Below are positions 19,734-39,104 of a DNA stretch of 39,356 nt, piece after piece. The position numbers were made by a program, and so were the translations under genes. The DNA lies in assembly GCA_030652805.1 (NCBI GenBank), contig JAUSPT010000031.1, forward strand, positions 1 through 39,356. The letters are read 5' to 3'. Origin of the DNA: a bacterium. Lineage in GTDB: Bacteria; JAHJDO01. Numbering within the stretch: the stretch's first letter is position 1; every line of letters starts with the position of its first letter. The notes under the pieces were generated by a model. That model was not told the DNA's origin and did no database searches. It saw only the letters and a list, made by a program, of their open reading frames with translations.

Positions 19734-20477
19734 ATGAACAAGAAAGATAGTAACGCAAAGATTGCTCTGATTATTGGTGGAAGCCGTGGTATAGGACGGG
19801 CGATAGCTCTGCGTCTTGCTAGGTCAGGATTTGATATATGGCTGACCTATAAAAGCAACCATGCTGCTGCTAAGAGGGTAAAAGAAGAGGTAGAGAAAAT
19901 AGGAAGAGCATGCGATGCTCTCTCTTTTGACGTTTCCAACTATAATGAGACCAAAGCTGCTCTGGAAAAAAGGCTGGACGCTCACACTCCCTACATAGTT
20001 GTATATAACGCAGGCATTACCAGAGACAATCTTTTGGTATGGATGACAAAGGAAGAATGGGATACGGTACTCTCTACAAATCTGGATGGGTTTTATAATG
20101 TAATGCACTTTGTTTTATTCCCAATGCTGCGGGAAAAACAGGGAGGACGCATTGTTGTTATATCTTCAGCTTCCGGACAGGTTGGCCGTGCAGGTCAGGC
20201 AAACTATTCTGCTTCAAAAGCAGGATTAATCGGCGCTGCTAAGGCATTAGCACTGGAGGTTGGCAGGAAGAATATTCTTGTTAATGTTGTTGCTCCGGGT
20301 GTTATTGAAACAGATATGATTGAAAATCTTCCTAAAGATAAGATCCTTCCGCTTATTCCATTACAGAGGTTTGGGAATCCTGATGACGTTGCATCAGTAG
20401 TGAACTTTTTATGCACAGAAAAGCATATGTATATTCATGGTCAGGTCATTGGTATTAACGGTGGCCTGGCTCTCTAA
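19734..20477 (+). CDS. fabG: 3-oxoacyl-ACP reductase (FabG/ApeQ-type ketoreductase)
   Basis: This is a 247-residue classical short-chain dehydrogenase. It has the NADPH-binding GGSRGIG (15-21), NAG at 92-94, and catalytic Ser145, Tyr158 and Lys162, ending with the family's GQVIGINGG. It reduces beta-ketoacyl-ACP during chain extension. In aryl-polyene clusters the equivalent is ApeQ. It is the first gene of a tightly packed run ending at 27325, so it is probably dedicated to this pathway rather than to housekeeping fatty acid synthesis. The ATG lacks a clear ribosome binding site and lies close to the predicted transcription start. Confidence 0.93.
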   Translation: MNKKDSNAKIALIIGGSRGIGRAIALRLARSGFDIWLTYKSNHAAAKRVKEEVEKIGRACDALSFDVSNYNETKAALEKRLDAHTPYIVVYNAGITRDNLLVWMTKEEWDTVLSTNLDGFYNVMHFVLFPMLREKQGGRIVVISSASGQVGRAGQANYSASKAGLIGAAKALALEVGRKNILVNVVAPGVIETDMIENLPKDKILPLIPLQRFGNPDDVASVVNFLCTEKHMYIHGQVIGINGGLAL

Positions 20478-20489
20478 GGTTGTCTCACT

Positions 20490-21992
20490 ATGAAAAAATA
20501 TGACGACGTAATTGTGGGAAGCGGTGTCAGCGGTCTAACACTTGCGCTTTTACTTGGCATGAACGGGCATAAAGTGCTGCTTGTTGAAAAAAACGTGCAT
20601 ATCGGAGGATCATTAAGGCGGTTTTATTCTCAAGGCATCCCTTTTGATACAGGATTTCACTTTACAGGCGGATTCTATAAAAACGGGATTCTTCAGGATA
20701 TGCTGATGGTTCTTGGTATTAAGGATCATATTCAGCCCATTTATCTGTCAGAGGAGAAAAATAACCAGTTTATAGTTGGCCCGGAACAGACAACATATAA
20801 TCTGCCAACTGGTTATCAGAGAATAATAGAAAAGATAAAGGAATACTTTCCCTGCGAAGAACATGCCATAGGCAAATATTTTGCTATAGTCAAGAATGTT
20901 TGTACTCATACTGCTGCCATGGATTTGCGTAAGATTTCTATGTCTGTGAGCGCTTTAGATGAGGATTTTCTAAGTCTTGATGATGCTTTGAACCAATTAA
21001 CTAATAATCACAAGTTGAAAGCACTTCTAGCTGGGTACAGCATGTGTTACGGGGTAAAACCTCAAGAGATTTCATTTGCCAATCACAGCAGAATCTGTTA
21101 CAGCCTGTATGAATCCATTGCCAGAGTAAAGAACGGCGGCGATGCATTTATCAGCGCATTTCAGAAACGTTTTGGAGAATTCAATATAGAAATTATGTGC
21201 AATAGGTATATTAAAGAGTGTGTTGATATCCAGAATAATTATGTAGGACATTTTGTTCTGAATACAGGAGAAGAAATATCCTGTGACCAGTGTATCTTTA
21301 CAATACACCCCATGGAGGTATTAAAAACCTTGCCTAATGACCATTTGAGCAAGGCTTTTGTTGATAGAGTCTCAGCATTTGAATCGTCAGCAGGATTCTT
21401 TTCAGTGTATGGTGTTGTGAAATCTCCTAACTTAGCAGATGACTTTACCCCAACAATCACCTCTCTATTTCCAACAGCGGATATAAACCAGTTGCTTGAT
21501 CAGGGAAATAACGCGATGCCGGCTATGGTAATTATGCAGAATGCAGAAGAAGTAAATGGGAAGTCCTATCATGTATTGAGCGCGCTTGAAGTGTCTTTCC
21601 CTGAGCATGTAGAAGCATGGAAGCTTTCAAAGACAGGGAATCGCCCTTCTGACTACCGGAAATATAAACAACAACATGTTAGCAGTATCAAAGAGCGTAT
21701 TATTGAAAAATTCCCGGAGTATAAGGATTCTTTTAAAGTAATAGATTCTGCATCTATCCTGACATTCAGAGATTATTTGAATTCTCCCGATGGGGCAGCG
21801 TATGGTATAAAACAGAAGATCGGACAGTTTAATCTTTTTGGAAAGCTTCCTCTTCGCAATATATATGCTGCCGGCCAGAGCTCTATGCTGCCGGGAGTGG
21901 TAGGAGCAATGATGTCTTCATTTATTGTTGGAAGAGCTATTGTTGGAAAAGAAAAATATAATTATTTTATTGAGCAGAGATTATGCAGTTAA
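20490..21992 (+). CDS. FAD-dependent desaturase/isomerase of the phytoene desaturase (CrtI)/RetSat superfamily
   Basis: This is a 500-residue flavoprotein. It has an N-terminal dinucleotide-binding G-S-G-V-S-G (10-15), an acidic residue at the end of the second strand (VEKN) and a GGSLRRF segment. The C-terminal FAD signature 'NIYAAGQSSMLPGVVGAMMSS' region is characteristic of the CrtI/CrtISO/retinol-saturase superfamily. Members desaturate, isomerise or saturate polyenes. No carotenoid genes (crtB, crtE) are nearby; instead it sits between a ketoreductase and a ketosynthase. It is therefore likely to act on a polyene made by this cluster (inference). Similar CrtI-like proteins occur in proposed ladderane gene clusters. 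The stop overlaps the next gene by 10 bases. Confidence 0.85.
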   Translation: MKKYDDVIVGSGVSGLTLALLLGMNGHKVLLVEKNVHIGGSLRRFYSQGIPFDTGFHFTGGFYKNGILQDMLMVLGIKDHIQPIYLSEEKNNQFIVGPEQTTYNLPTGYQRIIEKIKEYFPCEEHAIGKYFAIVKNVCTHTAAMDLRKISMSVSALDEDFLSLDDALNQLTNNHKLKALLAGYSMCYGVKPQEISFANHSRICYSLYESIARVKNGGDAFISAFQKRFGEFNIEIMCNRYIKECVDIQNNYVGHFVLNTGEEISCDQCIFTIHPMEVLKTLPNDHLSKAFVDRVSAFESSAGFFSVYGVVKSPNLADDFTPTITSLFPTADINQLLDQGNNAMPAMVIMQNAEEVNGKSYHVLSALEVSFPEHVEAWKLSKTGNRPSDYRKYKQQHVSSIKERIIEKFPEYKDSFKVIDSASILTFRDYLNSPDGAAYGIKQKIGQFNLFGKLPLRNIYAAGQSSMLPGVVGAMMSSFIVGRAIVGKEKYNYFIEQRLCS

Positions 21993-23224
21993 AACGGGTA
22001 GTAATAACGGGTGTTGGAGCTGTTTCTCCTTTAGGCAATGACGTTTCTGCTCTTACTGCGGGAATTGAACAAAGGAAAAGCGCTGTTCGTTATATGGATG
22101 ATTGGAACCGGTATATCGGCCTGCGCAGTTTAGTTGCAGCACCTGCGGAAGTTAAAAATGAAAAATTGATACCGCGTCAGAACAGACGATCAATGGGAAG
22201 AATGAGTATTTTTGCAGTTCAGGCAGCGCAACAAGCTCTGTCAGACGCTGATATAGGCAAAGAGGCATTATCTACAGGAAGGATTGGATGTATTATTGGG
22301 TCAACTACAGGAAGCGCTCAAAGCATTAGCGAGACATTTGAAATTATGGTCCCAACAAAGGATCTAACTCAACTCAATTCAACAAAATTCTTTCAATGCA
22401 TTTCCCATACAGCAGCAATGAATGTATCTCAGTATCTGGGAATAACCGGTTGCGTTATGGCAACCTCTGCCGCGTGCGCATCTGCATTGCAAGCTATTGG
22501 AGCAGGTTGCGATCTGATCAGGTTAGGCAAACAAGATGCGCTACTATGCGGTGGTGCGGAAGAACTTCATCCAACTGTTACAGGATCTTTTGATATTCTC
22601 TTTGCAACATCATCAAACTATAATCAATCTCCTCATAAAACCCCGCGGCCTTTTGACGTAAAACGGGACGGTTTGGTATGTGGAGAAGGAAGCGGGATAC
22701 TTGTTCTGGAGGAGTATGAAAGGGCTGTAGCAAGAAAAGCGAAAATATATGCTGAAGTTATAGGATATCATACATGCGGAAATGGTGCTCATATCAGCCA
22801 GTCCAGCAGAGCTGGTATGGTTTCATGCATCAGTAATGCCTTAAGCAATGCGCATATTGAACCAAAAGATGTTGATTACATCAATGCTCATGCAACAGCA
22901 ACGGTCCAGGGCGACAAGGAAGAAGCTCAGGCAATAGGAGAGATATTCGGTAGTCATGTTCCAGTAAGTAGTTTGAAGGGATATATCGGACATACGCTCG
23001 GCGCATCAGGGGCATTGGAATTGATTGCTTCTTTGGTAATGATGGAAAAAGGATGCATATACCCTACTCTAAACCTTGAGAAAGTAGATCCGGATTGTGA
23101 GGGCATTTGTCATGTAATGAAACCATTAGGCAAAGAGATTAAAATTATGGTAAAAAATTGCTTCGCATTTGGCGGGATTAATGCAGCATTGGTGTGTAAA
23201 AGAGTGACTAATTCTAAAAAATAG
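21983..23224 (+). CDS. Beta-ketoacyl-ACP synthase II-type (FabF-like) ketosynthase
   Basis: This is a 413-residue condensing enzyme with an intact Cys-His-His triad: Cys165 in TSAACASA, His303 in NAHATATVQGD and His337 in KGYIGHTLGASG. The GVGAVSPLGND opening is typical. It would extend ACP-bound chains by two carbons from malonyl-ACP. Two ketosynthases exist in this cluster; this one is next to its ACP and resembles generic FabF/ApeR more than the ApeO/ApeC pair (inference from gene order). It overlaps the desaturase gene by 10 bases and is followed by the ACP at 12 bases. Confidence 0.93.
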   Translation: MQLKRVVITGVGAVSPLGNDVSALTAGIEQRKSAVRYMDDWNRYIGLRSLVAAPAEVKNEKLIPRQNRRSMGRMSIFAVQAAQQALSDADIGKEALSTGRIGCIIGSTTGSAQSISETFEIMVPTKDLTQLNSTKFFQCISHTAAMNVSQYLGITGCVMATSAACASALQAIGAGCDLIRLGKQDALLCGGAEELHPTVTGSFDILFATSSNYNQSPHKTPRPFDVKRDGLVCGEGSGILVLEEYERAVARKAKIYAEVIGYHTCGNGAHISQSSRAGMVSCISNALSNAHIEPKDVDYINAHATATVQGDKEEAQAIGEIFGSHVPVSSLKGYIGHTLGASGALELIASLVMMEKGCIYPTLNLEKVDPDCEGICHVMKPLGKEIKIMVKNCFAFGGINAALVCKRVTNSKK

Positions 23225-23236
23225 GAGGAAGCTGGA

Positions 23237-23494
23237 ATGGATAAGCAGGAAATTATAGATAAAATAAATCAGGTATTTGAGGAATCCTTTGAGATTGAAA
23301 AAGAGAAACTCTTACCGCAAGCGAATATTTTTGAAGATCTGGGCTTGGACAGTTTAGATGTTGTGGACCTGGTTGTTGCCTTGCAGCAGAAATTTGGCAT
23401 TAAAATACGCGATGACCAACGCCTCAGAAACATCAGGACACTTGATGATATTTACAAATTTGTTCTTACTTTAAGAGATGAAGAAAAAATGTAA
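23237..23494 (+). CDS. Acyl carrier protein
   Basis: This is an 85-residue four-helix acidic carrier. Ser39 in LGLDSLDVVDLV is the phosphopantetheine attachment site. The length is slightly above housekeeping AcpP. GGAGG is about 8 bases upstream. It is the only ACP visible in the cluster; well-studied aryl-polyene clusters have two. A 4'-phosphopantetheinyl transferase is not in the window. It abuts the acyltransferase gene with no gap (TAA-ATG). Confidence 0.94.
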   Translation: MDKQEIIDKINQVFEESFEIEKEKLLPQANIFEDLGLDSLDVVDLVVALQQKFGIKIRDDQRLRNIRTLDDIYKFVLTLRDEEKM

Positions 23495-24247
23495 ATGAAG
23501 ACCTTAAAGCTGATATATTTTAACATAGTGTTTTACACGCTGTTCTTATCATTCTCTATGTTTAGTATTCCCATTTTAAGTTTATCTGTTATTTTTCTTG
23601 GTTTGTTTTCATCTCGCCGCAATACTATGAAGCGGTTCCGCAGAGCAATCAATTGGTACGGCAATGTTATTATTCGGGTTATTCCGTTCCCTTTTGTGCG
23701 TTTCAAGTATAAAGATTATGCAAAGAATAAAGGCAGAGGTCCATATATTTTTGTTTGTAATCACCGCTCCAGCTCAGACCCATTCTTGATTGGATGTCTT
23801 CCCTATGAACTTATTCAGATTGTGAATACATGGCCATTTCGTCTTCCGGTGCTGGGGATATTTGCAAGGTGGGCGGGTTATTTGAATGTCAAGAGAATGC
23901 AGTTCAAGAAATTTTCTTATAAGACAATCGAATTACTCAGACAGGGAGTTTCCATTGTTGCATTTCCTGAAGGAACACGTTCCAGAAACAAAAAAATCGG
24001 GCAGTTTCACAGCTCAATCTTTCGCGTTGCCTTGCAAGCGCAATGTCCAATTGTACCTATATGTATTTCCGGGAATGAGAATATCCCTCCACGCGGATCA
24101 CTTCTCTTGCATCAGGGAATAATCAGACTGCACAAATTGCCAGGTCTCGAATGGGAACAGTACAAGGATTTAGGACCGTTTAAGCTTAAAAACAAAGTGC
24201 GTGATATAATAGCTTCGGAGCTTGCTGTTATGGAGGGTGGGGCATGA
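23495..24247 (+). CDS. PlsC-type lysophospholipid/glycerol acyltransferase
   Basis: This is a 250-residue membrane acyltransferase of the LPLAT superfamily. It has an N-terminal hydrophobic helix pair (about 12-40), the catalytic HX4D motif at His90-Asp95 in NHRSSSDP, and the FPEGTRSR phosphate-binding motif (157-164). It transfers an acyl chain from ACP or CoA to a glycerol-phosphate-type acceptor. In aryl-polyene clusters a similar enzyme links the polyene acid to a lipid anchor. The gene starts directly at the ACP stop and overlaps the ligase by four bases (ATGA). Confidence 0.9.
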   Translation: MKTLKLIYFNIVFYTLFLSFSMFSIPILSLSVIFLGLFSSRRNTMKRFRRAINWYGNVIIRVIPFPFVRFKYKDYAKNKGRGPYIFVCNHRSSSDPFLIGCLPYELIQIVNTWPFRLPVLGIFARWAGYLNVKRMQFKKFSYKTIELLRQGVSIVAFPEGTRSRNKKIGQFHSSIFRVALQAQCPIVPICISGNENIPPRGSLLLHQGIIRLHKLPGLEWEQYKDLGPFKLKNKVRDIIASELAVMEGGA

Positions 24248-25551
24248 GAGATTTATATCGTTATCGTGATATAGCGTTTAGTCCGCCGAAAGAAATCCGA
24301 GAGATTCAGGAAAGGCAATTACAGGAACACATTGCATACTGTATCAAACATTCTCCTTTTTACAGCAAAGCACTGAAGAATATCAAAGCTGAATGCAGTA
24401 ATATAACGATTGATCAGCTATCAAAACTTCCCTTTACTGAGAAGTCTGATATTGAGCAAAATAATGACGATTTTTGCGCAGTTACTTCTGATAAGATTGT
24501 TGATATTGTTTTATCTTCAGGAACAACGGGCAAACCGATCAGGATGATGTATACTAATTATGACTTAAAGCGGCTTGCCTATAATGAGGAAAGATCGTTT
24601 ACAGGATGCGGACTGACTTCCAATGATACGGTGTTATTAACCTGCACAATGGATCGCTGTTTCGTTGCAGGACTGGCGTATTTTCTTGGGATACGCAGTG
24701 TTGGCGCAGCAGCTATTAGAAACGGGCATAACAGTCTTGAGAGTCACCTGCAGATTATAAAACAAATGGAGCCAACAGCTCTTATCGGAGTTCCGAGTTT
24801 TCTGAGGAAACTGGGTTTGTACTTAAAGGAAAGTGGAATAGATCCTGATAAAACTGCTGTGTCCAAACTAATTTGTATTGGTGAACCGTTACGCGGAAAA
24901 AATCTTGAATTGTTAAAAGTAGGGGATGATTTGCAGAGCATATGGCAGGCACATGCTTTTTCCACATACGCTTCTTCTGAGATTGTAACTACATTCTGTG
25001 AATGTACTGCTCAGCAAGGAGGCCATTCCCTTCCTGATCTGGCAGTTGTAGAAATCATTGATAAAAACGGCACCGTTCTTCCTCCTGGTAATACAGGCGA
25101 AATCGTTATAACGCCAATGGCGGTAGAAGGAATGCCTCTGATACGGTTTAAGACAGGTGATGTAAGTTTCCTGATTGATGAGCAATGCTCTTGTGGGCGG
25201 TTTTCTCCCAGGCTGGGGCCGATTATGGGAAGGAAAAAACAAATGACGAAGATCAAAGGAACGACTCTGTATCCACAGGCAATATATTCTGTCTTAGAAG
25301 AGATTGAGGCAATAAATGACTATTATGTAACAGTATCCGGAGAAAGCGAACTTTCAGATATCATAGAAATCAATGTATCAGTTAATGATCCGTCATGCAC
25401 CGCAGATATGATACAGGATAAACTTCAGGCGCGTCTGAGAGTAAAACCTGAGATAATAATCGTTGATTCGGGAACCATTAAACAGAAGGTCTATGATCCA
25501 AAGTCGCGAAAGCCAATTCGCTTTATAGATAGGAGACAAACAAAACAGTGA
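24244..25551 (+). CDS. Phenylacetate-CoA ligase-like AMP-forming acyl/aryl ligase
   Basis: This is a 435-residue adenylate-forming enzyme of the PaaK type. The P-loop-like SSGTTGKP (91-98), the GVPSFLRKLG segment, Y-ASSE near residue 240, and FKTGDVS (about 300) with the IMGRKKQMTKIKGTTLYP hinge match this family. It activates a carboxylic acid as acyl-AMP, then thioesterifies it to CoA or an ACP. In APE clusters such a ligase (ApeH) loads the aromatic starter. Whether the starter here is aromatic cannot be told; no ammonia-lyase or chorismate lyase is nearby. Four-base overlaps on both sides indicate coupled translation. Confidence 0.88.
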   Translation: MRDLYRYRDIAFSPPKEIREIQERQLQEHIAYCIKHSPFYSKALKNIKAECSNITIDQLSKLPFTEKSDIEQNNDDFCAVTSDKIVDIVLSSGTTGKPIRMMYTNYDLKRLAYNEERSFTGCGLTSNDTVLLTCTMDRCFVAGLAYFLGIRSVGAAAIRNGHNSLESHLQIIKQMEPTALIGVPSFLRKLGLYLKESGIDPDKTAVSKLICIGEPLRGKNLELLKVGDDLQSIWQAHAFSTYASSEIVTTFCECTAQQGGHSLPDLAVVEIIDKNGTVLPPGNTGEIVITPMAVEGMPLIRFKTGDVSFLIDEQCSCGRFSPRLGPIMGRKKQMTKIKGTTLYPQAIYSVLEEIEAINDYYVTVSGESELSDIIEINVSVNDPSCTADMIQDKLQARLRVKPEIIIVDSGTIKQKVYDPKSRKPIRFIDRRQTKQ

Positions 25552-27017
25552 GTTGTCACACCCCAATACCAAATTTTGAATTTGCACGAGAGGAAATAGA
25601 AGATGCAGTACGCAATGGCAGGCTTCTATCTATGGAAATTGAACCCAGTCTGCGTTGTAATTTCCACTGTCCATATTGTTATATACCTGAGAATTCTTCT
25701 CTTGAAAACGAGTTGACTGTAGAGGAAATCTGCGATGTTATTTTACAGGCGCAGGATCTTGGAGCAAAAAAAATTATTATTCTCGGCGGAGAGCCGATGA
25801 TATATCCGCATATTATGGAAATAATTAAGTTTATCAGAACGCATCATCTTAATGTGGAGATGTTTACCAATGGTTCTAATATTACTGCTGATATAGCGAA
25901 ACAGCTTTTTGACTATGGAGTAAATGTGGTTCTAAAAATGAACACGCTTAATGAGCATACTCAGGATATACTCGCCGGGAAAAAAGGATCGTTCAAGATC
26001 ATTCAGGAAGCATTCCACAATCTAAAGCAGGCAAGACGGCCTTCCGGAGAAACATTTCTTGCAATCAGTACCGTTATATGCTCTCAGAATATTGATGAGC
26101 TGGTGGATATGTGGCAAAAGCTGAGGGATCAGAATATTATCCCATATTTTGAGATGATTACTCCGCAGGGAAATATTAGACAAAACGGATGGTTAAATAT
26201 TGAACCTCAAAAGCTGCATGATATTTTTTGTAAAATTGCCGAAATTGACCGTACTCACTATGGATACTTTTGGGAGCCTCAGCCTCCTCTGATAGGGAAT
26301 AGATGTCTGCGGCACCAGTTTTCATGTCTTGTTACTTCTCAAGGATATGTTACGCCGTGTGTTGGGGTAACTATACCGGTTGGAAGCATACGAAAGCAAA
26401 AGCTTCGAGATATTATAAAAGACAGTGAGGTCATTCAGGATCTTAGAAACTACCATGATACAATGAAGGCTCCTTGCCGTGAATGCGAAAAATCAAATGA
26501 ATGTTACGGATGCCGCGGAGCAGCATACCAGCTGACAGGCGATTATCTGGCTTCTGACCCTATGTGCTGGAAGAATGTTGATAAACAGGGTGAAATTGCC
26601 CGTTTACCGATTGCAGTTGAAGAACTAATTCCGCAGAAATCGCCAATGAGAGTCATTGATACACTTGTGAAAGTTGGTGAGCGTTCAGCAGATGTAACTG
26701 TGACATTGTCGAAAGATATGCTGTTTATTGACGAAAGCGGTTTGCTTGACGAGGCTGCGTATCTTGAAATGATAGCGCAGGCAATAGCATCACTAAGCGG
26801 ATTTAAACATATGGGTGCATCTAAACCGGCGCCGGGAGGATTCCTGCTTGGAGCGAAAAAGCTTGAGATATTAGGAAAAGCACATGTTGGAGACACATTA
26901 AATATATCATTTTATAAATATGCAAGGTATGGCGGTTTTGGCATTGTTAAAGGAACCGTATCGCGAGACAACCATGTGCTTGCCAGAGGAGAGGTAAAGA
27001 TCTGGCATGAGATATGA
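25548..27017 (+). CDS. Radical SAM/SPASM-like enzyme fused to an ApeP-like hotdog dehydratase domain
   Basis: This is a 489-residue two-domain protein starting at GTG (GTGA overlap with the ligase stop). Residues about 28-240 form a radical SAM domain: Cys37, Cys41 and Cys44 in CNFHCPYC, and GGEP at 80-83. A Cys-rich SPASM-like region follows (about 250-350: a CLRHQFSC segment, CVGV, and CRECEKSNECYGC). Residues 353-489 resemble ApeP, the FabZ-like dehydratase of aryl-polyene synthesis, with Glu407 in YLEMIAQA and the GGFLLGAKKLE segment. The catalytic His expected in the LPH-x-x-PM motif is Gln363 (IPQKSPM). This suggests either a non-dehydrating chain-binding domain or altered chemistry. 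The fusion would bring a radical enzyme to an ACP-bound chain (inference). Confidence 0.85.
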   Translation: MSCHTPIPNFEFAREEIEDAVRNGRLLSMEIEPSLRCNFHCPYCYIPENSSLENELTVEEICDVILQAQDLGAKKIIILGGEPMIYPHIMEIIKFIRTHHLNVEMFTNGSNITADIAKQLFDYGVNVVLKMNTLNEHTQDILAGKKGSFKIIQEAFHNLKQARRPSGETFLAISTVICSQNIDELVDMWQKLRDQNIIPYFEMITPQGNIRQNGWLNIEPQKLHDIFCKIAEIDRTHYGYFWEPQPPLIGNRCLRHQFSCLVTSQGYVTPCVGVTIPVGSIRKQKLRDIIKDSEVIQDLRNYHDTMKAPCRECEKSNECYGCRGAAYQLTGDYLASDPMCWKNVDKQGEIARLPIAVEELIPQKSPMRVIDTLVKVGERSADVTVTLSKDMLFIDESGLLDEAAYLEMIAQAIASLSGFKHMGASKPAPGGFLLGAKKLEILGKAHVGDTLNISFYKYARYGGFGIVKGTVSRDNHVLARGEVKIWHEI

Positions 27018-27325
27018 ATAAAATGGTTTTTCTTTACATTTCCAATGAATCAGCCAAAGAGGCAAAAAAAATTGCCAGGCACTTGCTTGAAGAACGTATG
27101 ATTGGCTGTGCGAATATTTTCCCAGTCAATGCTATGTATTGGTGGAAAGGCAAAATTGCCGATAAAACGGATGTTGTGCTTATTGCTAAAACAACGAAGG
27201 AGAATTATCAAAGAGTTCGGGATGAAATTGCCAGAATCCATCCTTTTGACACTCCTTGCATAATCAAGCTGGACGCAGATCCCAATGAAAAATATTTGCA
27301 ATGGATCAAAAGTGAACTCAAATAG
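27014..27325 (+). CDS. cutA: CutA-like divalent ion tolerance protein
   Basis: This is 103 residues, the full length of the CutA family, a trimeric PII-like fold. The sequence contains MIGCANIFPVNAMYWWKGKI (about 30-49), a TKENYQRVRDEIARIHPFDTPCII segment and a terminal YLQWI, all typical. CutA was named for copper tolerance, but its biochemical role is unclear. The ATGA overlap with the radical SAM fusion makes it part of the biosynthetic operon, which is unexpected. It is the last gene before the inserted cassettes. Confidence 0.92.
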   Translation: MNKMVFLYISNESAKEAKKIARHLLEERMIGCANIFPVNAMYWWKGKIADKTDVVLIAKTTKENYQRVRDEIARIHPFDTPCIIKLDADPNEKYLQWIKSELK

Positions 27326-27401
27326 ATAGTGAGCCAGAATGGAATCCGCTTTTACTGGTATTATTTTGCTAAATCAGTAAAGGTTTGCTATATTTTAGAT
27401 A

Positions 27402-27448: not shown

Positions 27449-28019
27449 TTAGACGACATTACATAAAGAGGAGGCAAATGATGTTTTTTAAACCACAATG
27501 GTATAGAAATCTTCCTGATTCTGTTAAGCCAATAGATGACAAGAAAATAAATAAAATAGAAGATTTTCGCATAAAATCTGAAGCATATTTAGGCAAAGAT
27601 AAATCACAGGAAATGATATTTATTGGTATTATGGTTTCCAAATGGGCGGTCAAAAGAATCCAACAATATACTTTGGAATTAATTAGAAAACAAATACCAA
27701 ATGCTCATCAGAAAGAATTATGGAAACAGGTACTTCTTGCGAGACTAAATGTTAAATTAAGCACATCTAGTGAAAAACTCGATATGTTTTCACGACCGTT
27801 ATCTGAAACAGAGTTATTATCGCGAATCAACAATATCGATGAGATAGTGGTAAAGTGCGAATCATTTAATGATGTCATGGATTACATCATAACCATGGAC
27901 GAGCACGAAAATAGATTTTATGATCCGACAGGGATGCAATCTGAATTAGAATCAATATTAAATAGTAAAAATGTCTAACCAAACAATCCAGCGAACTGTG
28001 CCAGCCGCTGATTTTTGTG
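27449..28019 (+). mobile_element. Integron-cassette-like insertion 1
   Basis: The left boundary is G^TTAGAC (27448-27454). The right end is an attC-like palindrome beginning GTCTAAC (27973-27979), the exact reverse complement of the left core. Circularising the segment would join its TTAGAC end to the final G at 28019 and rebuild a complete attC with matching outer cores, as in a genuine cassette. One ORF fills it, oriented toward the attC-like end. No integrase is in the window. Confidence 0.65.
27478..27978 (+). CDS. Hypothetical protein in cassette 1
   Basis: This is a 166-residue soluble protein of unknown family, mostly helical by composition, with no signal peptide or membrane segment. 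It has a Lys/Ile-rich N-terminal half and an acidic C-terminus (a MDEHENRFYDP stretch near residue 146). The start is supported by GAGGAGG (27469-27475) directly upstream; ATG 27478 and 27481 are both possible. Its stop TAA is embedded in the attC-like core GTCTAAC, as is common for cassette genes. It is not related to the surrounding biosynthetic genes. Function unknown. Confidence 0.7.
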   Translation: MMFFKPQWYRNLPDSVKPIDDKKINKIEDFRIKSEAYLGKDKSQEMIFIGIMVSKWAVKRIQQYTLELIRKQIPNAHQKELWKQVLLARLNVKLSTSSEKLDMFSRPLSETELLSRINNIDEIVVKCESFNDVMDYIITMDEHENRFYDPTGMQSELESILNSKNV

Positions 28020-29557: not shown

Positions 29558-30196
29558 AATAAAATCACAATAATACTAATCGCATTATGTATGTCTCTAT
29601 TGTCGCTTAACGGCTATGCTGAGCAGAGTGTGGAGGATGTGCTCAGTAAACTTGAAGAAAAAATGTCAGATATAAAAACTTTGAAAACTGGTTTTGTTCA
29701 GGAGAAAAAGCTGGCGATCTTTGATAGAGAGATTATTTTGAAGGGCAAGATATTTCTTAAAAAGCCGGATCTTTTTGCATGGCATACCGAAGAGCCGACA
29801 CGGTATTCTATGATTATAAGGGATGATGTTATTCTGCAGTGGGATGAAGATATAGACCAAGTTCAGAAGGTAAGTATGAAGGATAATCCTGCGTTTCAAA
29901 CCGTTGTCGGGCAAATGAGGAAATGGCTTTCAGGCATATATATGCCATTGTTGGAAGAATACAATATAACAGTACTCAAGCAAAACCCGGTTTCCCTTAA
30001 ATTCACGCCGCGCGAAAATACAATGGCTTATAATATTATCAACTATGTAAGGATTGTATTCAGAGAGGATGAACGCTATATCCACGAGATATACATAAAG
30101 GAGAAAACCGGCGATTCTACGCTTCTCAGGTTTAATGATACCATGCTGAATACTCCGATCGATGATGCGGCATGGGAGGTCAAACCGCGTGGCTGA
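29555..30196 (+). CDS. LolA-like outer-membrane carrier (ApeL-type)
   Basis: This is 213 residues from the ATG at 29555, chosen because GGAG lies five bases upstream and the product then begins with a signal peptide (MNKITIILIALCMSLLSLNG, cleaved near residue 22). The beta-rich body with LKTGFVQEKKLAIFDREI, a KPDLFAWHTEEP segment and MRKWLSG matches LolA-fold carriers present in aryl-polyene and flexirubin clusters. It likely ferries the lipidic product across the periplasm together with the MMPL protein. The next gene starts inside its last codons (GTGGCTGA). An upstream ATG at 29540 is less likely. Confidence 0.87.
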   Translation: MNKITIILIALCMSLLSLNGYAEQSVEDVLSKLEEKMSDIKTLKTGFVQEKKLAIFDREIILKGKIFLKKPDLFAWHTEEPTRYSMIIRDDVILQWDEDIDQVQKVSMKDNPAFQTVVGQMRKWLSGIYMPLLEEYNITVLKQNPVSLKFTPRENTMAYNIINYVRIVFREDERYIHEIYIKEKTGDSTLLRFNDTMLNTPIDDAAWEVKPRG

Positions 30197-32561: not shown

Positions 32562-33226
32562 CGTTATATTTGCTGCTCGCAGGGTTAGTTGGATTGTGCA
32601 GTACAGGATGCAGCAGTATTCCGTTTAAAAAGGTCCAATATGTCTCGGTCAGCAAAGTGCAGCCTACAGCAATTCGGGAGCAATTTGCCAGTACCCTTTC
32701 TCAGAAATTCCAGGTAATTAACACAATTGTTTTTCAGTATAGGCGGCATAAGTTCTCTGCTATTGGGTATACTGATATTGATTCTCTTCAAAAGCTTTTT
32801 AAAATTATCTGTCTTAATCATGCAGGTATTAAGTTATTTGAGTTAGCCGGAAATGATAATAGCGTTGAATGCAAGTTCGCTTTTGAAGGAGCTTCTTTTC
32901 CCGGCAATTTTGCCCAAGCAGTGGCAGATGATATCAGAAGAATTTATTTTGACTCTATTCCTGGTCCTGAAGCTAAAATATATAAAAAGAAAAAGAAGAT
33001 TATTTTCAGGCAGCCTTCAGAAACAGGTGTAATGGAATACATATTTGCCGGCACTGACAACCTGTTGGTTGAAAAACGGTGTTATAAAGGGTGGCGCAAA
33101 ATCTGGAGTGTTTTTTATTATGAGTACCGCAGAAAGAACGGAAAACTATATCCATCCGGCATTATGCTCAAACATCATAAATACAACTATCAGCTAACTG
33201 TGCGATTGAAGGAGATTCAAACATGA
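32537..33226 (+). CDS. DUF3261-like lipoprotein (ApeN-type)
   Basis: This is a 229-residue predicted lipoprotein. It has a Lys-rich N-terminus, a hydrophobic stretch (9-20) and Cys25 in CSTGCSS as the likely lipidation site (the lipobox is not perfect). The body is beta-strand-rich with a basic KKKKKII segment and a final YRRKNGKLYPSGIMLKHHKYNYQL part that fits DUF3261, a family found next to MMPL exporters in APE clusters. It is probably an outer-membrane component of product export. It overlaps the exporter gene by 25 bases and the next gene by four. Confidence 0.75.
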   Translation: MAKTKKGIALYLLLAGLVGLCSTGCSSIPFKKVQYVSVSKVQPTAIREQFASTLSQKFQVINTIVFQYRRHKFSAIGYTDIDSLQKLFKIICLNHAGIKLFELAGNDNSVECKFAFEGASFPGNFAQAVADDIRRIYFDSIPGPEAKIYKKKKKIIFRQPSETGVMEYIFAGTDNLLVEKRCYKGWRKIWSVFYYEYRRKNGKLYPSGIMLKHHKYNYQLTVRLKEIQT

Positions 33227-33615
33227 ATAGGCTTATGCAGGAGATCAAACAATGTATGTCTGATTTAGCTGAAACTAAAAAAGGGGAAGTAACTGCGCAC
33301 TTTCTTTTTCCATCAGAGTTCATTGGGTTTCAGGGGCATTTTCCAGACAAACCTGTTCTTCCGGGTGTTTGTAAAATACAGGCGGTTATAGTAATGCTTC
33401 AGGCATGGGAAAAGGAGGATGTCAGACTGAAGGAAATTGTTTCGGCAAAATTCTTTTCACCAGTTTCCCCCGAAGAAGAAATTGTTTTTAATTACAGGAA
33501 GCAAACAGAAAGCAACGGCGAAGCGCTCGTAAAAGCATCAGTAACCAGTAAAGATAAGAAAATTGCTGAACTGCAGCTGAGAGTAAGTGTTAAAAATGAA
33601 ACACAGGAGAACTAA
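33223..33615 (+). CDS. ApeI-like hotdog dehydratase (3-hydroxyacyl-ACP dehydratase)
   Basis: This is a 130-residue single hotdog domain. His39 in FQGHFPDKPVLPGV is the catalytic His of the FabA/FabZ/ApeI group. It would remove water from beta-hydroxyacyl-ACP to make the trans double bonds of a polyene. The second dehydratase-like domain of this cluster (C-terminus of the radical SAM fusion) lacks the catalytic His, so this protein may carry the activity for both (inference). It overlaps the lipoprotein gene by four bases. Confidence 0.88.
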   Translation: MNRLMQEIKQCMSDLAETKKGEVTAHFLFPSEFIGFQGHFPDKPVLPGVCKIQAVIVMLQAWEKEDVRLKEIVSAKFFSPVSPEEEIVFNYRKQTESNGEALVKASVTSKDKKIAELQLRVSVKNETQEN

Positions 33616-33616
33616 T

Positions 33617-34765
33617 ATGCATGCGCCAGAAGCAGTTGTTGTTGCCTGTGATCTCATAACTCCTTACGGCTTGGGCATTGATGCGTGCTGGAATGGCCTT
33701 TTATCCGGGAAGACTGCAATAAATCCATTAGACCGTTTTGATACAGATGTATTTCAAACAAAAAAAGCGGCTACAATCGCTGAACTCAAGACTGGTCAAA
33801 GTGATTCTCTGGTAATGCAGATGCTGAAGCCGTTACTAAAAAAAGCATCTGCTATTATTCCAAAAGACGCTCTCTTAATTTTAGCAACCACAACAGGCGA
33901 AATAGATATTCTGGAGAAACAGGTTCTTAATGCCAAAGATAATGCGGACGAAAGCGCGCTTGGCTGTTTGTTAAGCAAGGTGCAATGCTTGAGCGGGATA
34001 AGGTCGCCCGGGATTATTGTGTCTGCGGCATGTACTTCTTCAAGCAGCGCAATTGCACAGGCATCAGCAATGATCCGTAGTAAAGAGCGTGACTGTGTGC
34101 TGGTAGTTGCCTGTGATATTGTAAGTGAATTTGTTTTTGCCGGATTCTCTTCTCTGATGGCATTAGATAAAGATACGGCGAGGCCCTTTGATAAAAACAG
34201 AAGCGGTCTAAGTCTTGGCGAAGCAGCAGGATTTGTTCTGGTTATGAGTAAAGAAAGAGCTATTCAGGAAGAAAGGTCTATTATTGGAGAAATAGCCGGT
34301 TGGGGACTGACAAATGATGCTAATCATATGACCGGTCCGTCCAGAGATGGAAGCGGACTGGCACTGGCTATGCGTAAAGCCCTGCGATCAGCAGATATTT
34401 CTGAGGATACTGTTGGATGCATAGCAGCGCATGGCACAGGAACTGTGTATAACGACGCTATGGAAATGAAGGCGTTTAAATCTGTTTTTGCTTCAGGAAC
34501 TCTTCCAACCTACTCTATTAAAGGAGGAATAGGCCATACAATGGGAGCGGCAGGTCTGGTGGAGACAATTGTGGCATTGCGGTCATTAAGAGAAAAACTT
34601 GTTCCTCCTACAGTTAATCTGCGTATCGCTGATGATGAAGCTGAGGGCTGGGTCTCCACTGAGCCGGACTCATTTGACAACCCTGTAACCGTATCTATCA
34701 ACGCTGGATTTGGCGGAGTGAATTCTGCATTGGTATTGAAAAAATTGGATGAGCAGCAGTTATGA
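33617..34765 (+). CDS. Beta-ketoacyl-ACP synthase (ApeO-like)
   Basis: This is 382 residues from ATG 33617, chosen over 33587 because AGGAG lies seven bases upstream and the latter overlaps the dehydratase. The triad is Cys139 in VSAACTSS, His272 in AAHGTGTVYND and His307 in KGGIGHTMGAAG. Its N-terminal part is shorter than FabF. Position next to a chain-length-factor-like gene and an ApeI-like dehydratase matches ApeO of aryl-polyene clusters. It is probably the main chain-extending ketosynthase, working with the 190-residue partner downstream. Confidence 0.92.
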   Translation: MHAPEAVVVACDLITPYGLGIDACWNGLLSGKTAINPLDRFDTDVFQTKKAATIAELKTGQSDSLVMQMLKPLLKKASAIIPKDALLILATTTGEIDILEKQVLNAKDNADESALGCLLSKVQCLSGIRSPGIIVSAACTSSSSAIAQASAMIRSKERDCVLVVACDIVSEFVFAGFSSLMALDKDTARPFDKNRSGLSLGEAAGFVLVMSKERAIQEERSIIGEIAGWGLTNDANHMTGPSRDGSGLALAMRKALRSADISEDTVGCIAAHGTGTVYNDAMEMKAFKSVFASGTLPTYSIKGGIGHTMGAAGLVETIVALRSLREKLVPPTVNLRIADDEAEGWVSTEPDSFDNPVTVSINAGFGGVNSALVLKKLDEQQL

Positions 34766-35334
34766 TTATTTCAGGTATTGGCTGGATTAGTAAAGGAAAA
34801 TATGGGTGTGTGAAAAAGGCAGTATGCACAGATTATACTGATATAAAATCTCTGCATTCAAAGCTGCAGAATGAATCAATATTTTTGTATCCTGTGAAGA
34901 ATTTTGGAAGATTTGACATGACTTCAAAAATGTCTTGCTGTGCAGGCGCTCTGGCACTGCATGATGCAGGAGTAAAGTATTCTGAAAAGCATAAACAGGA
35001 TATTGGAATTATCAGCACAAATACTGATGGATGCTTGAAGTCTAATCTGAATTATTTCAGGGATTATGTGCAGACAGGCAGAAAACTCGCGCGTGGTAAT
35101 CTTTTTATCTATACACTTCCGTCAAGTCCTCTGGCAGAAGCATCAATTCACTTTGGGTTTCAGGGCCCATTGCTGTATATCATGTTTCCACAAAAACATA
35201 TTCCGTCTTTACTTCAATATGCAGAAGGCATAATATCCCGCAAAGAAGCATCAACAATACTGGCTATGAAAGTTGATGAAAAGAAGGCTGTATGTTTTGT
35301 TCTGAGAAGGGAAGAGGACACTTCTTCCAAATAA
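34762..35334 (+). CDS. Ketosynthase-like chain-length-factor partner (ApeC-like)
   Basis: This is a 190-residue protein resembling only the N-terminal ketosynthase half. It has a GIGWISKGKYG opening, an FGRFDMTSKMSC segment, a CAGALALHDAG helix and IGIISTNTDG. The usual nucleophile Cys region is replaced (FQGPLLYIMFP), and there are no catalytic histidines. This pattern fits the inactive ApeC/XanB-type partner that forms a heterodimer with ApeO and limits chain length. It is shorter than the roughly 240 residues I expect for ApeC. The four-base overlap (ATGA) with the ketosynthase gene supports complex formation. Confidence 0.72.
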   Translation: MIISGIGWISKGKYGCVKKAVCTDYTDIKSLHSKLQNESIFLYPVKNFGRFDMTSKMSCCAGALALHDAGVKYSEKHKQDIGIISTNTDGCLKSNLNYFRDYVQTGRKLARGNLFIYTLPSSPLAEASIHFGFQGPLLYIMFPQKHIPSLLQYAEGIISRKEASTILAMKVDEKKAVCFVLRREEDTSSK

Positions 35335-35336
35335 AT

Positions 35337-36584
35337 ATGAAAATAAAACTGATATATCCCACATGGCCGAAACTAATGGATCAGACGGAATTTAATCTGC
35401 CTCCTCATGGTCCTGTGTGTTTTGCTGCTGCGCTGAGTGATGATATTGAAATTTCCTTCTGTGATGAGAATGTTGAAGAGCTTGATTTTAATGAAGATGC
35501 AGACTTGATTGTGCTTTCAGTTATGCTGACATGCCAGATGCCCCGCGCATGGGAAATTAGCGATTGGTATCGAGCTCATGGTAAGAAGGTGGTGTTTGGC
35601 GGCATTGCAACAATGCTTCATGCAGAAGAAACAATGCAACATGCAGATGCTGTGTTTTTAGGAGAAGCGGAAGGTAAGTTTAATAAGGTTATTTATGATT
35701 TCAAAAATGGTCATCTTGAAAAAATGTATGACTTTTTTCATGATTTTCCGGATATGAATCTGGTTAAAACTGCAAAACGCAGTATTCTTAAGCGTGAATT
35801 ATATAATTTTCGCGGTGTGCAGATGGTTGATCTGGTGCATGCGTCGCGAGGGTGCAAGTTTAATTGTTTTCCATGCTGTACGCCGTATTTGGGAGGGCGC
35901 AAATTCAGGCCGCGTCCTATTGATGCAGTATTGATGGAGCTGGAAAGCATTGATAATAACCGCTTGTTTTTTGTTGATAATTCCCTGGCGCAGGACGATG
36001 AATGGGAAAAGGAACTGTTTAGGGCAATTGCTCCGTTAAAAAAGAAATGGATATCTCATCCAATAAAAGACGATGATGAGATACTGGATTTAGCTGCTAA
36101 AGCAGGATGTTGGTATGTATATCAGGCAATAATAGATACCTCAGATCATATCCGCAGAAGAGTTAAGCGGCTGCAGGAACATGGCATTGGAGTTGAAGGA
36201 ACTATTCTTCTGGGGCTGGATTATCATGATGAAGATTATATAAAGCGATTAGTTGATTTTCTTCTTGAGATAAATCTTGACCTTGCCGAATTTACTATCC
36301 TTACTCCATTTCCTCATGCGCCGATCAGAGCTCAGCTGGAAAAAGAAAATAGAATCCTTCATAATAACTGGATTCAGTACACGACAGGAGAAGTTGTATT
36401 TAAACCGGCAAAAATGACTGTAGACTCATTGCAAAACATGTATCACTATGCGTGGGAAACATTTTACTCTGACTGCAGCAGGGAAATAAAGATGGCAAAA
36501 CTGTTTCTTAAAGTTATTGAAAAAGAAAAAAAAGATGGGACTTATAAAAGAGCCAGATTGAATGCTAATCGGGCGTGGTCATGA
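35337..36584 (+). CDS. Cobalamin-type radical SAM enzyme (HpnP/class B methylase-like), 1
   Basis: This is 415 residues from ATG 35337; a longer frame from 35292 overlaps the previous gene. The N-terminal B12-binding-like domain (1-140) has the typical VVFGGIATM and FLGEAEGKF turns but no D-x-H-x-x-G motif, so cobalamin would be bound without the His ligand, if at all. Cys173, Cys177 and Cys180 in CKFNCFPC form the radical SAM cluster site, followed by an extra Cys181. The C-terminal FTILTPFPHAPI and FKPAKMTVDSL segments are shared with lipid-modifying enzymes such as hopanoid methylases. It could alkylate or cyclise the polyene lipid; substrate unknown. Confidence 0.83.
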   Translation: MKIKLIYPTWPKLMDQTEFNLPPHGPVCFAAALSDDIEISFCDENVEELDFNEDADLIVLSVMLTCQMPRAWEISDWYRAHGKKVVFGGIATMLHAEETMQHADAVFLGEAEGKFNKVIYDFKNGHLEKMYDFFHDFPDMNLVKTAKRSILKRELYNFRGVQMVDLVHASRGCKFNCFPCCTPYLGGRKFRPRPIDAVLMELESIDNNRLFFVDNSLAQDDEWEKELFRAIAPLKKKWISHPIKDDDEILDLAAKAGCWYVYQAIIDTSDHIRRRVKRLQEHGIGVEGTILLGLDYHDEDYIKRLVDFLLEINLDLAEFTILTPFPHAPIRAQLEKENRILHNNWIQYTTGEVVFKPAKMTVDSLQNMYHYAWETFYSDCSREIKMAKLFLKVIEKEKKDGTYKRARLNANRAWS

Positions 36585-37933
36585 AAATCCTACTGATTGC
36601 TTCTAATATTGCCAGTACTCCGTATCCTATTTATCCGCTTGGCTTGAGTATGGTTGCAGCTACTTTGAGTAACGCTGGGCATAAAGTATATCAGTTTGAT
36701 TTTCTTCAGAGTAATAAGTCCATGGAGGCACTTTGCAGGGTAATCAAAGACAGTACTCCTGACATTATAGGTGTATCAATTCGCAATATAGATAATGTGA
36801 ACTTCTTAAGTGAACAGCGCTATATTGATGTTGCGAGGGATATTGTGAAAATGATCCGCACACAAACCAGTGTGCCAGTAGTGCTGGGCGGCGCAGGATT
36901 TTCTATTATGCCAGAAGCAATCCTGCGTGAGGTTGGTGCTGATTATGGAATTGTTGGAGAAGGAGAGGCTCTAATGCTTGAATTTGTTGCAAATGCTGAA
37001 AAAGGCGTTTATCCAAAAGAACGCTGCATACAGCCCAGCTCCAGCCTAAAAGGCGAAGAAATTCCCTCTGCATATTATGATCCAAAGATTATGGAGTTTT
37101 ATCTGAAAAGAGGGAACATTGGATCTGTGCAGACAAAGCGGGGATGTACACATAAATGCGTGTACTGCTCGTATCCTATTTTGGAAGGCACAAGTATTCG
37201 CTGCAGGGATCCGAAGGCAGTGGTTGATGATATTCAGTTGCTGACTGATACGCACAAGGCAAAGTATATCTTTTTTACTGATTCGGTTTTTAATGATGAC
37301 CAAAAACATTATCTGAACGTAGTTCGTGAAATGGCAAAAAGAGGGGTGTCTATCCCTTGGACTGCGTTTTTCAAACCGGAAAAGCTTGATGATGAAATTA
37401 TAGCGCTGATGAAACAGACCGGGCTGAAAGCAGCAGAGCTTGGATCTGATGCGCCCGCTGATACAACACTTCGTAGACTTGGCAAGTCATTTCTGTTCAG
37501 GGACATTATTGAGTGTAATAACTCCTTTGTCCGCGCTAATATTGCCACAGCGCATTATTATATGTTTGGTTGTCCGGGGGAGACACGGGAAACAGTGCTC
37601 GAGGGAATAGAAAATATCAAAAGTCTGAAAAAGGCAGTATCTTTTATCTTTATGGGGATACGGATTATTCCCGGCACGGACCTTGAGCGCATAGCGCTTA
37701 AAGAAGGGATTCTTTCCAATGGTCAGGATTTACTGAAATCTGTTTATTATATTTCTCCAAACATTGATAAACAGTGGCTAAAGGAGACATTAACTAAGGC
37801 ATTCTCCGGCATTAAACATTGTATTTTCCCTCCTGATGCAGGGGACACTACTTTACAGTTTCTTCACAAACTTGGATATTCAGGCTCTATGTGGGATATG
37901 CTTATTACCGGGAATAAAAAGCCAGGTGAATAA
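36581..37933 (+). CDS. Cobalamin-type radical SAM enzyme, 2
   Basis: This is 450 residues from ATG 36581, sharing ATGA with the previous stop; a GTG at 36575 is an alternative. The B12-binding-like domain (1-150) has YPLGLSMVAATLSNAGH, VVLGGAGFSIMPE and VGEGEAL, again without D-x-H-x-x-G. Cys189, Cys193 and Cys196 in CTHKCVYC bind the [4Fe-4S] cluster. The remainder is an Elp3-like barrel with MFGCPGETRETV. It is clearly different from its neighbour, so two distinct radical steps are likely. Possible roles are methylation, cyclisation or bond formation on the cluster's lipid. Confidence 0.85.
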   Translation: MKILLIASNIASTPYPIYPLGLSMVAATLSNAGHKVYQFDFLQSNKSMEALCRVIKDSTPDIIGVSIRNIDNVNFLSEQRYIDVARDIVKMIRTQTSVPVVLGGAGFSIMPEAILREVGADYGIVGEGEALMLEFVANAEKGVYPKERCIQPSSSLKGEEIPSAYYDPKIMEFYLKRGNIGSVQTKRGCTHKCVYCSYPILEGTSIRCRDPKAVVDDIQLLTDTHKAKYIFFTDSVFNDDQKHYLNVVREMAKRGVSIPWTAFFKPEKLDDEIIALMKQTGLKAAELGSDAPADTTLRRLGKSFLFRDIIECNNSFVRANIATAHYYMFGCPGETRETVLEGIENIKSLKKAVSFIFMGIRIIPGTDLERIALKEGILSNGQDLLKSVYYISPNIDKQWLKETLTKAFSGIKHCIFPPDAGDTTLQFLHKLGYSGSMWDMLITGNKKPGE

Positions 37934-39104
37934 TAACTCTTTCTCTACAGATCATATCTGGTGTGTTATCCCTGTATTTAATAATAAGGATACTGTGAAA
38001 AATGTTGCTTTATCCTGTAGAGATTATTTGAAGAATATAGTTGTTGTTGATGACGGAAGCACTGATACTAATATATCCGCCTTGTTTGCTGACACTGGAG
38101 TTATTGTGCTTAAACATGAGAAAAATCTTGGCAAAGGCAGAGCAATTCTTACTGCGTTAGGGTATATTCAAGCTCAAGGCGGACGCTTTATGATTACGAT
38201 TGATGCAGACGGACAACACTATCCGCAGGATTTGGAGAAGTTCATTCCTTTGCTCCAGAAAGATGAAACAAGTATTGTTATTGGGTGCAGAAAACTTCAT
38301 GGGAAACATGTTCCACGTAAAAGCCATTTTGGGAAAAAGGTTGCTAATTTCTGGCTGCGCGTAGAAACAGGAGTTTCAATTGAGGATTGCCAGAGCGGCT
38401 TTCGCTCGTATCCAGTGCGGTACCTTTCACAAATGAAATTAACAGGCTCTCACTATGATTTTGAAACTGAAGTTCTGGCAAGGGCAGTATGGGCAGGGCT
38501 ATATTTAAAGATGATTGAGGTTGATGCATGGTATCCTGAGCCTCAATCCCGCATTTCGCATTTCAAGCCATTTGTAGACAATATGCGTATTTCCTGTATG
38601 CATACCAGATTAGTAGGCAGATGTCTCTTACCGCTTCCACATCGAAAACTAGTTTTTGAAGCCGCTAAAAAAATCGACCTGAGCATGCTTCGCCATCCTG
38701 TTAAATTATTGAAGATGCTGCTAAAAGAGAATGCAAGTTCCTCTGGATTAGCTGTATCAGCAGGAGTTGGGATCTTTCTTGCTGTACTGCCGCTTATCTC
38801 AATTCATACACTGGTGATTATTTATGTGACAGCGCGCTTGCATTTGAACAAGGCGATGGCTATTACCATACAGAATTTATGCATACCGCCTTTCGTTCCT
38901 GCAGTCTGCATTGAACTGGGATATTATATGCGGCACGGCCGCTGGTTAACCAATGTCTCCATGGATGTTATTTTTAAGCAATTCCCCGACAGGTTGTTGG
39001 AATGGCTACTTGGCTCTCTTATAGTTGCGCCTGTATTGGCAATTGTTATAGGAATAAGTGTGTTTTTCACAGCAAAAACATTGCAGAATAGAACCGATAA
39101 TTAG
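37926..39104 (+). CDS. Family 2 glycosyltransferase fused to a DUF2062 membrane domain
   Basis: This is 392 residues from GTG 37926, overlapping the previous stop by eight bases; a longer frame from 37836 would be mostly inside the radical SAM gene. The GT2 domain (about 10-230) has VVVDDGSTD (Asp42/43), a DAD motif at 93-95 and the DCQSGFRSY segment. A DUF2062 domain (about 260-390) with several membrane helices follows. The GT2-DUF2062 architecture recurs in aryl-polyene and flexirubin clusters. It probably glycosylates or tailors a lipid-linked intermediate at the inner membrane. It is the last gene of the cluster. Confidence 0.87.
   Translation: MNNNSFSTDHIWCVIPVFNNKDTVKNVALSCRDYLKNIVVVDDGSTDTNISALFADTGVIVLKHEKNLGKGRAILTALGYIQAQGGRFMITIDADGQHYPQDLEKFIPLLQKDETSIVIGCRKLHGKHVPRKSHFGKKVANFWLRVETGVSIEDCQSGFRSYPVRYLSQMKLTGSHYDFETEVLARAVWAGLYLKMIEVDAWYPEPQSRISHFKPFVDNMRISCMHTRLVGRCLLPLPHRKLVFEAAKKIDLSMLRHPVKLLKMLLKENASSSGLAVSAGVGIFLAVLPLISIHTLVIIYVTARLHLNKAMAITIQNLCIPPFVPAVCIELGYYMRHGRWLTNVSMDVIFKQFPDRLLEWLLGSLIVAPVLAIVIGISVFFTAKTLQNRTDN

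Follow-up and report, generated by a model that had tools for sequence, protein, structure and literature searches.

A cross-phylum aryl polyene-like gene cluster with radical SAM enzymes, probably half of a two-module lipid pathway

Results

The window analysed here is a 39,356-nucleotide stretch comprising the entire contig C31 (JAUSPT010000031.1; assembly GCA_030652805.1, GTDB lineage Bacteria; JAHJDO01) of a genome, G000, that totals 2.0 Mb in 102 contigs and is 95.6% complete. At positions 19734-39104 of its plus strand lies a biosynthetic gene cluster in which the genes of aryl polyene (APE) synthesis and export are combined with a CrtI-like flavoprotein and radical S-adenosylmethionine (rSAM) enzymes. 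The locus probably encodes half of a two-module type II, acyl carrier protein (ACP)-based, polyketide/fatty-acid pathway for an outer-membrane lipid. Genes were called from hidden Markov model (HMM) scans with Pfam and NCBIfam cut-offs, the spans of open reading frames (ORFs) being those of the longest ORF. The scans recovered every gene named in a first-pass annotation of the window (Table 1), which had been made from the sequence alone and had proposed an APE/ladderane-like hybrid cluster. The gene content, the intact catalytic motifs, the conserved order and linkage of the genes, and the presence of a second operon in the genome are established.

Conservation of the cluster

A scan with the TIGR04072 protein of the cluster revealed relatives in Desulfobacterales, in Omnitrophota (including Candidatus Aceula meridiana) and in Kiritimatiellia metagenome-assembled genomes (MAGs), while the window's own phylum was sampled by five genomes, all of one genus. 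The order FabG-CrtI-FabF1-ACP-PlsC-FlxY-rSAM/SPASM-LolA-MMPL-DUF3261-DH-KS-CLF-rSAM 'a'-TIGR04072-GT2/DUF2062, in which DH denotes dehydratase, KS ketosynthase and CLF chain-length factor, is kept through all 16 genes in the congeners, in Desulfobacterota (G005) and in Omnitrophota (G586, G524, G012, G011 and G015). Three Kiritimatiellota loci (G701, G884 and G775) are collinear with small departures, in that G775 has FabG and CrtI at the far end and DUF3261 was detected in G701 only. Divergent relatives (G300, G210, G255 and G340) retain most of the cluster genes. Several relatives carry a 4HBT thioesterase between the dehydratase and the ketosynthase, which the window's genus lacks.

Recurrence of a 16-gene order in several phyla is far beyond chance and, as judged from these comparisons, the cluster is one pathway with a gene order common to at least four phyla. 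The first-pass annotation had proposed that conserved linkage of the rSAM and CrtI-like genes in relatives would support a single pathway; for the CrtI-like gene, which did not serve as a bait protein in fetching the loci, this is what was found, since all 14 core-bearing loci have it.

The enzyme termed rSAM 'a' was matched, at E<=1e-90, in 53 of 395 Desulfobacterota genomes, 10 of 285 Omnitrophota genomes and 8 of 195 genomes in the phylum of the Kiritimatiellia MAG; within the order to which G210 belongs, 100 of 194 genomes have it. A TIGR04072-family match accompanied it in 33 of the 35 Desulfobacterota carriers covered by both searches, against 117 of 297 genomes overall (hypergeometric P about 5e-13, ignoring phylogenetic relatedness), the overlap set being judged from genome numbers and the searches having scored the best first-look candidates only. 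In the tree of rSAM 'a' the genus of the window makes up a single supported clade. It groups with collinear Desulfobacterota (G005, G247 and Desulfobacteraceae MAGs) and with one Omnitrophota genome (support 86/96), and several phylum labels are intermixed. Horizontal spread of the cluster would fit this gene tree, taken without a species tree. A Bacteroidales-binned contig (CSMAG_1796) and an Omnitrophota contig (L021, L023) are nearly identical over this region, and one of the two is probably misbinned.

A second module elsewhere in the genome

In G005, G247 and G012 the cluster continues past GT2-DUF2062 into a second module, which comprises an LpxL-like acyltransferase, ACP2, the ketosynthase KS3, a Cys-less chain-length factor (CLF3), ACP3 (for which there was no call in G247), a condensation-like protein, an FAD oxidoreductase and an acyl-adenylating enzyme. 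The genome of the window has the same genes in the same order, with an additional PagL-like gene, as an operon on another contig (G000:C32:152190-160610). KS3 is 57-62% identical between G000 and the relatives and keeps the Cys-His-His residues, CLF3 is without the Cys, and the condensation-like protein has an HxxxD motif (DHCLFD). The comparison indicates that the window's cluster is only part of the pathway, with a second KS-CLF module located elsewhere in the genome. Truncation of the cluster by the contig end was considered and rejected; since a convergent minus-strand ORF follows GT2-DUF2062 (its 3' end at 39101-39355, resembling a nucleotidyltransferase C-terminus by eye only) and the second module is on C32, the cluster probably ends at GT2-DUF2062.

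Comparison with aryl polyene and flexirubin clusters

The APE/flexirubin layout proposed in the first-pass annotation is borne out by an ApeO-ApeC type KS with half-size CLF, an ApeR-type second KS and the LolA-MMPL-DUF3261 genes. Besides these, the APE clusters of E. coli CFT073, A. baumannii and X. doucetiae share with the window FabG, ApeI- and ApeP-like dehydratases, ACPs, an acyltransferase, a ligase, a glycosyltransferase and an RND/MMPL transporter, and the E. coli counterparts were matched gene by gene (ApeC/D/E/H/I/L/M/N/O/P/Q/R). The window differs in its CrtI-like flavoprotein, SPASM rSAM enzyme, two B12-type rSAM enzymes and second KS-CLF module; the E. coli gene list contains neither rSAM nor CrtI. 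The FlxY-, FlxB- and LolA2-like proteins are close matches to those of flexirubin clusters.

The closest solved structures to the FabF1 ketosynthase are those of AbApeR (7F27; PMC8358021; 363 bits) and PpApeR (4ewg; 349 bits), the next match in the PDB search scoring 249. Tyr135 and Phe202 of AbApeR align with Phe136 and Phe203 of FabF1, a pair that is invariant in 15 orthologues. As proof of an aryl starter the aromatic pair was rejected, being only suggestive, for Phe203 matches a Phe of E. coli FabB (PMC8358021). The partner described earlier as ApeC-like is a 190-aa single-domain KS half without the active-site Cys (176-248 aa in collinear orthologues), as reported for ApeC of APE clusters (PMC8358021). 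PDB searches with the CLF and with the DUF3261 protein returned nothing useful. The DUF3261 assignment is weak for the window's own protein but holds in its orthologues, and the radical SAM fusion noted previously does join an rSAM-SPASM protein to a hotdog domain, although the sole Pfam match of this C-terminal 140-aa domain (PF22817, ApeP-like) is sub-threshold.

Radical SAM and CrtI-like enzymes

The rSAM 'a' enzyme is the most conserved protein of the cluster and outranks most of the polyene enzymes across loci; 53 aligned homologues are 49-92% identical with an invariant CxxxCxxC motif, and the family scan returned no curated family or equivalog match for it. The first-pass description of two cobalamin-type rSAM enzymes stands for the TIGR04072 protein, which has a strong B12-binding domain and a full-length family match. 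Conversely, the B12-binding match of rSAM 'a' is barely above its cut-off (34 versus 32.1 bits) and the DxHxxG motif is absent from its sequence. The best fold match of its AlphaFold2 (AF2) model (pLDDT 92.7) is AprD4, with MgmA, TsrM and CysS also matched. AprD4 has a B12-domain-like fold without cobalamin, and the use of cobalamin by rSAM 'a', judged from the model, is therefore uncertain.

For the CrtI-like protein the AF2 model (pLDDT 89) has the carotenoid desaturase 4rep as its best fold match, the nearest proteins being carotenoid and phytoene desaturases. A further CrtI/CrtISO-like protein of about 529 aa (93% identical) is encoded near the second module in G000 (L148:2769-4358, on C32) and adjoins the main cluster in the congener G001 (L025:15466-17052).

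Relationship to ladderane clusters

Clusters of this kind are already known, and the combination is no isolated case. Rattray et al. (2009) described type II fatty acid synthesis (FASII) clusters in Kuenenia and Desulfotalea psychrophila with rSAM enzymes, phytoene-dehydrogenase-like proteins, Cys-less FabF paralogues, a PCL ligase and a membrane protein, and D. psychrophila was found to make C31:8 and C31:9 hydrocarbons but not ladderanes (PMC2649909). The functions of kuste3335-3352 were listed by Javidpour et al. (2016), and an attempt in 2016 to express candidate genes of Kuenenia in E. coli was unsuccessful (PMC4790861). Clusters called 'ladderane' by antiSMASH occur in Omnitrophota, Desulfobacterota, Verrucomicrobiota and others and are expressed in situ; the available portion of that source gives no gene-level dissection (PMC9902471). 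What is new is the collinear APE-type architecture across phyla, the detached second module, a strongly conserved rSAM family without a name and a bridge to the anammox order through G278; no paper on these features was found within a limited open-access literature.

The anammox/Desulfotalea FASII cluster (kuste3335-3352; DP1853-1860) shares with the window TIGR04072, a SPASM rSAM enzyme, a PCL ligase, FabG, a CrtI-like protein, a KS plus Cys-less KS, a membrane protein and a glycosyltransferase, and the enzyme types proposed for anammox ladderanes are thus present, as had been claimed. The gene order differs, however, and APE export genes are embedded in the window's cluster, making it a relative and not a member of the anammox ladderane cluster type. 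The TIGR04072 family itself also occurs in other cluster types, with matches in 117 of 297 Desulfobacterota genomes at E<=1e-60, 63 of them over cut-off.

The Desulfobacterota locus G278 reads polysaccharide deacetylase, KS, divergent FabF-like protein, methyltransferase, KS, KS-like protein, FlxY-family ligase, SPASM rSAM, TIGR04072, FabG, ACP and FabZ-like protein, which is the kuste3351-to-3339 order except for unassigned ORFs at the position of ACP 3350. This order, with its C-methyltransferase and deacetylase, is absent from the window. Since G278 reproduces the Kuenenia order, it ties the window's families to the anammox cluster; the FlxY-like ligase of the window and the PCL of G278 belong to one family, and from gene order and family only we infer that the counterparts of TIGR04072, the SPASM rSAM and the FlxY-like ligase are kuste3342, kuste3343 and kuste3344, respectively. 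Families shared by the window and G278 are 36-43% identical, and of rSAM 'a' only a 33% paralogue, and no orthologue, was found in G278.

Discussion

The pathway probably builds a polyene-type lipid that is then modified by radical and flavin enzymes and exported to the outer membrane. The FlxY-like ligase would load a starter acid onto ACP, and the ApeR-like KS and ApeO/ApeC-like KS-CLF would extend the chain with FabG, the ApeP-like domain and the ApeI-like dehydratase and so yield a conjugated polyenoyl-ACP of the kind formed in aryl polyene synthesis. The CrtI-like flavoprotein, rSAM 'a' and TIGR04072, together with the SPASM rSAM in most relatives, may next act on this chain by desaturation, isomerisation or C-C bond formation. 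PlsC, GT2 and the second-module enzymes (LpxL-like and condensation-like transferases, the second KS-CLF, two more ACPs, a second ligase and the FAD oxidoreductase) would assemble a glycosylated, acylated lipid, to be carried to the outer membrane by LolA, MMPL and the DUF3261 lipoprotein. Each chemical step, the substrates and the location of the lipid are predicted.

Several observations weigh against this pathway. The lipid product is predicted from gene content, and the outer-membrane route is drawn by analogy to APE. The FlxB, FlxY and LolA2 models score under their curated cut-offs (Table 1). The loci were fetched with TIGR04072 or rSAM 'a' as bait, which biases the linkage of those two; the expected rSAM linkage is present in relatives, but as evidence is less independent than that of CrtI. 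Finally, the ligase and the SPASM rSAM are missing or broken together in G247, G300 and G340, which also suggests that the two form one sub-module. In G247 the FlxY ligase is gone together with the catalytic part of the rSAM/SPASM gene, and the remnant (L115:9384-10517) is a 377-aa ORF without CxxxCxxC that has SPASM and ApeP-like parts.

It is unlikely that the locus makes an ordinary aryl polyene or flexirubin, with the rSAM and CrtI genes as neighbours or minor tailoring functions, despite a nearly complete APE gene set and the conserved aromatic pair of the ApeR-like KS. PF00221 (PAL/TAL/HAL) and PF04345 (UbiC) were not found in the genome, an absence that is not absolute given its completeness, and standard aryl starters are therefore not evident, other routes or uptake being possible. 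The cluster also has no aryl methyltransferase gene, and the strong conservation of rSAM 'a' and the want of rSAM and CrtI in the E. coli cluster argue in the same direction. Missing starter genes, missed equivalog cut-offs and extra conserved enzymes led to plain APE or flexirubin being rejected as the full identity of the cluster. A role in supplying polyunsaturated chains to C31 polyene hydrocarbon synthesis, the proposal made for Desulfotalea, has in its favour the related cluster of that hydrocarbon-containing organism, but appears quite improbable: only one FabH-type protein was found in G000, itself 95.6% complete, which leaves no OleA candidate for head-to-head condensation, and GT2, LolA and MMPL better suit an exported polar lipid. 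A hydrocarbon end product was accordingly not favoured.

The match to TIGR04072, named 'rSAM_ladder_B12', the PCL, SPASM rSAM, FabG, CrtI and KS-CLF types in common with kuste3335-3352, and the proposal of cobalamin-type rSAM enzymes for ladderane rings would all be consistent with synthesis, by a bacterium outside the anammox group, of a true ladderane or another cyclobutane lipid. Such a product is nevertheless very improbable, since the anammox-type proteins shared with G278 are of low identity, the gene order differs, the Kuenenia link is one of family name and gene order, and Desulfotalea, which is much closer to Kuenenia in synteny, showed no ladderanes. Within the two-module pathway favoured here, it is conceivable, but doubtful, that about 25 genes make an undescribed class of outer-membrane lipid, an APE-type polyene cyclised or cross-linked by the rSAM 'a' family with TIGR04072. 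If true, the lipid would be carbocyclic and distributed over several anaerobic phyla, and its pathway would stand close to that of ladderanes in evolution.

Ladderane biosynthesis in anammox bacteria is unsolved, and the cluster in the window, compact and well ordered, is a cousin with counterparts in Desulfobacterota, where closed genomes exist. Comparison of three architectures (that of the window, the divergent Desulfobacterota type and the anammox-type G278) helps to separate shared enzymes (KS-CLF and TIGR04072) from variable ones (the SPASM rSAM with the ligase, and rSAM 'a'). The cluster would also offer a genetic handle on the antiSMASH 'ladderane' clusters of many phyla without known product.

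Gene map and neighbouring genes

Table 1. Features of the cluster and its flank in the window. Daggers mark features that the first-pass annotation did not mention.
Feature	Position	Strand	Evidence
Histidine kinase and response regulator†	16994-19682	+	51 bp upstream of cluster
FabG-like ketoreductase, ApeQ/FlxB role	19734-20477	+	NF004200 FabG 306 bits, over cut-off; FlxB 290, cut-off 340; collinear in relatives
CrtI/CrtISO-like flavoprotein (polyene desaturase, isomerase or reductase)	20490-21992	+	NAD_binding_8/Amino_oxidase; CrtD 82 bits, far below cut-off
ApeR-like ketosynthase FabF1	21983-23224	+	Best PDB matches AbApeR 7f27, PpApeR 4ewg; Cys/His/His kept
Acyl carrier protein	23237-23494	+	PF00550; DSL motif invariant
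PlsC-type acyltransferase, ApeD role	23495-24247	+	PF01553 89 bits
FlxY/PaaK-type acyl-adenylating ligase	24244-25551	+	NF053551 FlxY 471 bits, cut-off 520
rSAM-SPASM fused to ApeP-like dehydratase domain	25548-27017	+	PF04055, PF13186; CxxxCxxC kept
CutA1†	27014-27325		
166-aa ORF†	27478-27978		Inserted ORF
DUF3800 protein†	28234-29283		Inserted ORF
LolA-like carrier	29540-30196	+	PF03548 58 bits; LolA2_flexi 115 bits, cut-off 125
MMPL/RND transporter, ApeM role	30162-32561	+	PF03176 above cut-off; HpnN-like
DUF3261/LolB-like lipoprotein, ApeN role	32537-33226	+	PF11659 in 9/10 orthologues; invariant Cys25
ApeI/FabA-like hotdog dehydratase	33223-33615	+	PF07977 36 bits, ApeI-like 28 bits; GHF motif conserved
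ApeO-like ketosynthase	33587-34765	+	PF02801/PF00109; Cys-His-His kept
ApeC-like half-size CLF	34762-35334	+	Weak FabF N-terminal match; without catalytic Cys
rSAM enzyme 'a'	35292-36584	+	B12-binding 34 bits, Radical_SAM 28 bits; no equivalog
TIGR04072 'rSAM_ladder_B12' lipid-biosynthesis B12-binding rSAM protein	36575-37933	+	644 bits, cut-off 360
GT2 glycosyltransferase with C-terminal DUF2062	37836-39104	+	PF00535, PF09835

On the longest-ORF basis, 12 of the 18 junctions between neighbouring ORFs overlap and one abuts; the true start of rSAM 'a' is probably at 35337. Three long gaps (152-256 bp) flank the 166-aa and DUF3800 ORFs, which split the operon between CutA1 and LolA and, because they are missing in G001 and all other relatives examined, are probably a recent insertion. 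In G000 and G001, CutA1 shares 4 bp with the rSAM-SPASM gene; relatives beyond the genus showed no such gene at this site. None of these three genes was retained as a pathway member, since none occurs in relatives outside the genus and the latter two are also missing from G001.

The gene map of G001 has peculiarities of its own, namely a RhuM-Fic gene between FabF1 and ACP (L024:15570-16550) and, between CLF and rSAM 'a', genes for an AcrB-like pump and an outer-membrane efflux protein (L025:7186-11696). In G001 a single open frame of 830 aa (L025:12988-15480) covers both TIGR04072 and GT2-DUF2062, as opposed to two frames overlapping by 98 nt in the window.

A promoter and terminator scan of the window gave a signal at chance level overall, its strongest promoter-like match (19689-19717) falling in the gap between the upstream regulatory gene pair and FabG. 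The histidine kinase and response regulator encoded upstream are a possible regulator of the cluster. Elsewhere in the window, the minus strand at 1691-8646 carries anaerobe housekeeping genes, with clpP, trigger factor, three tRNAs and an rnf operon.

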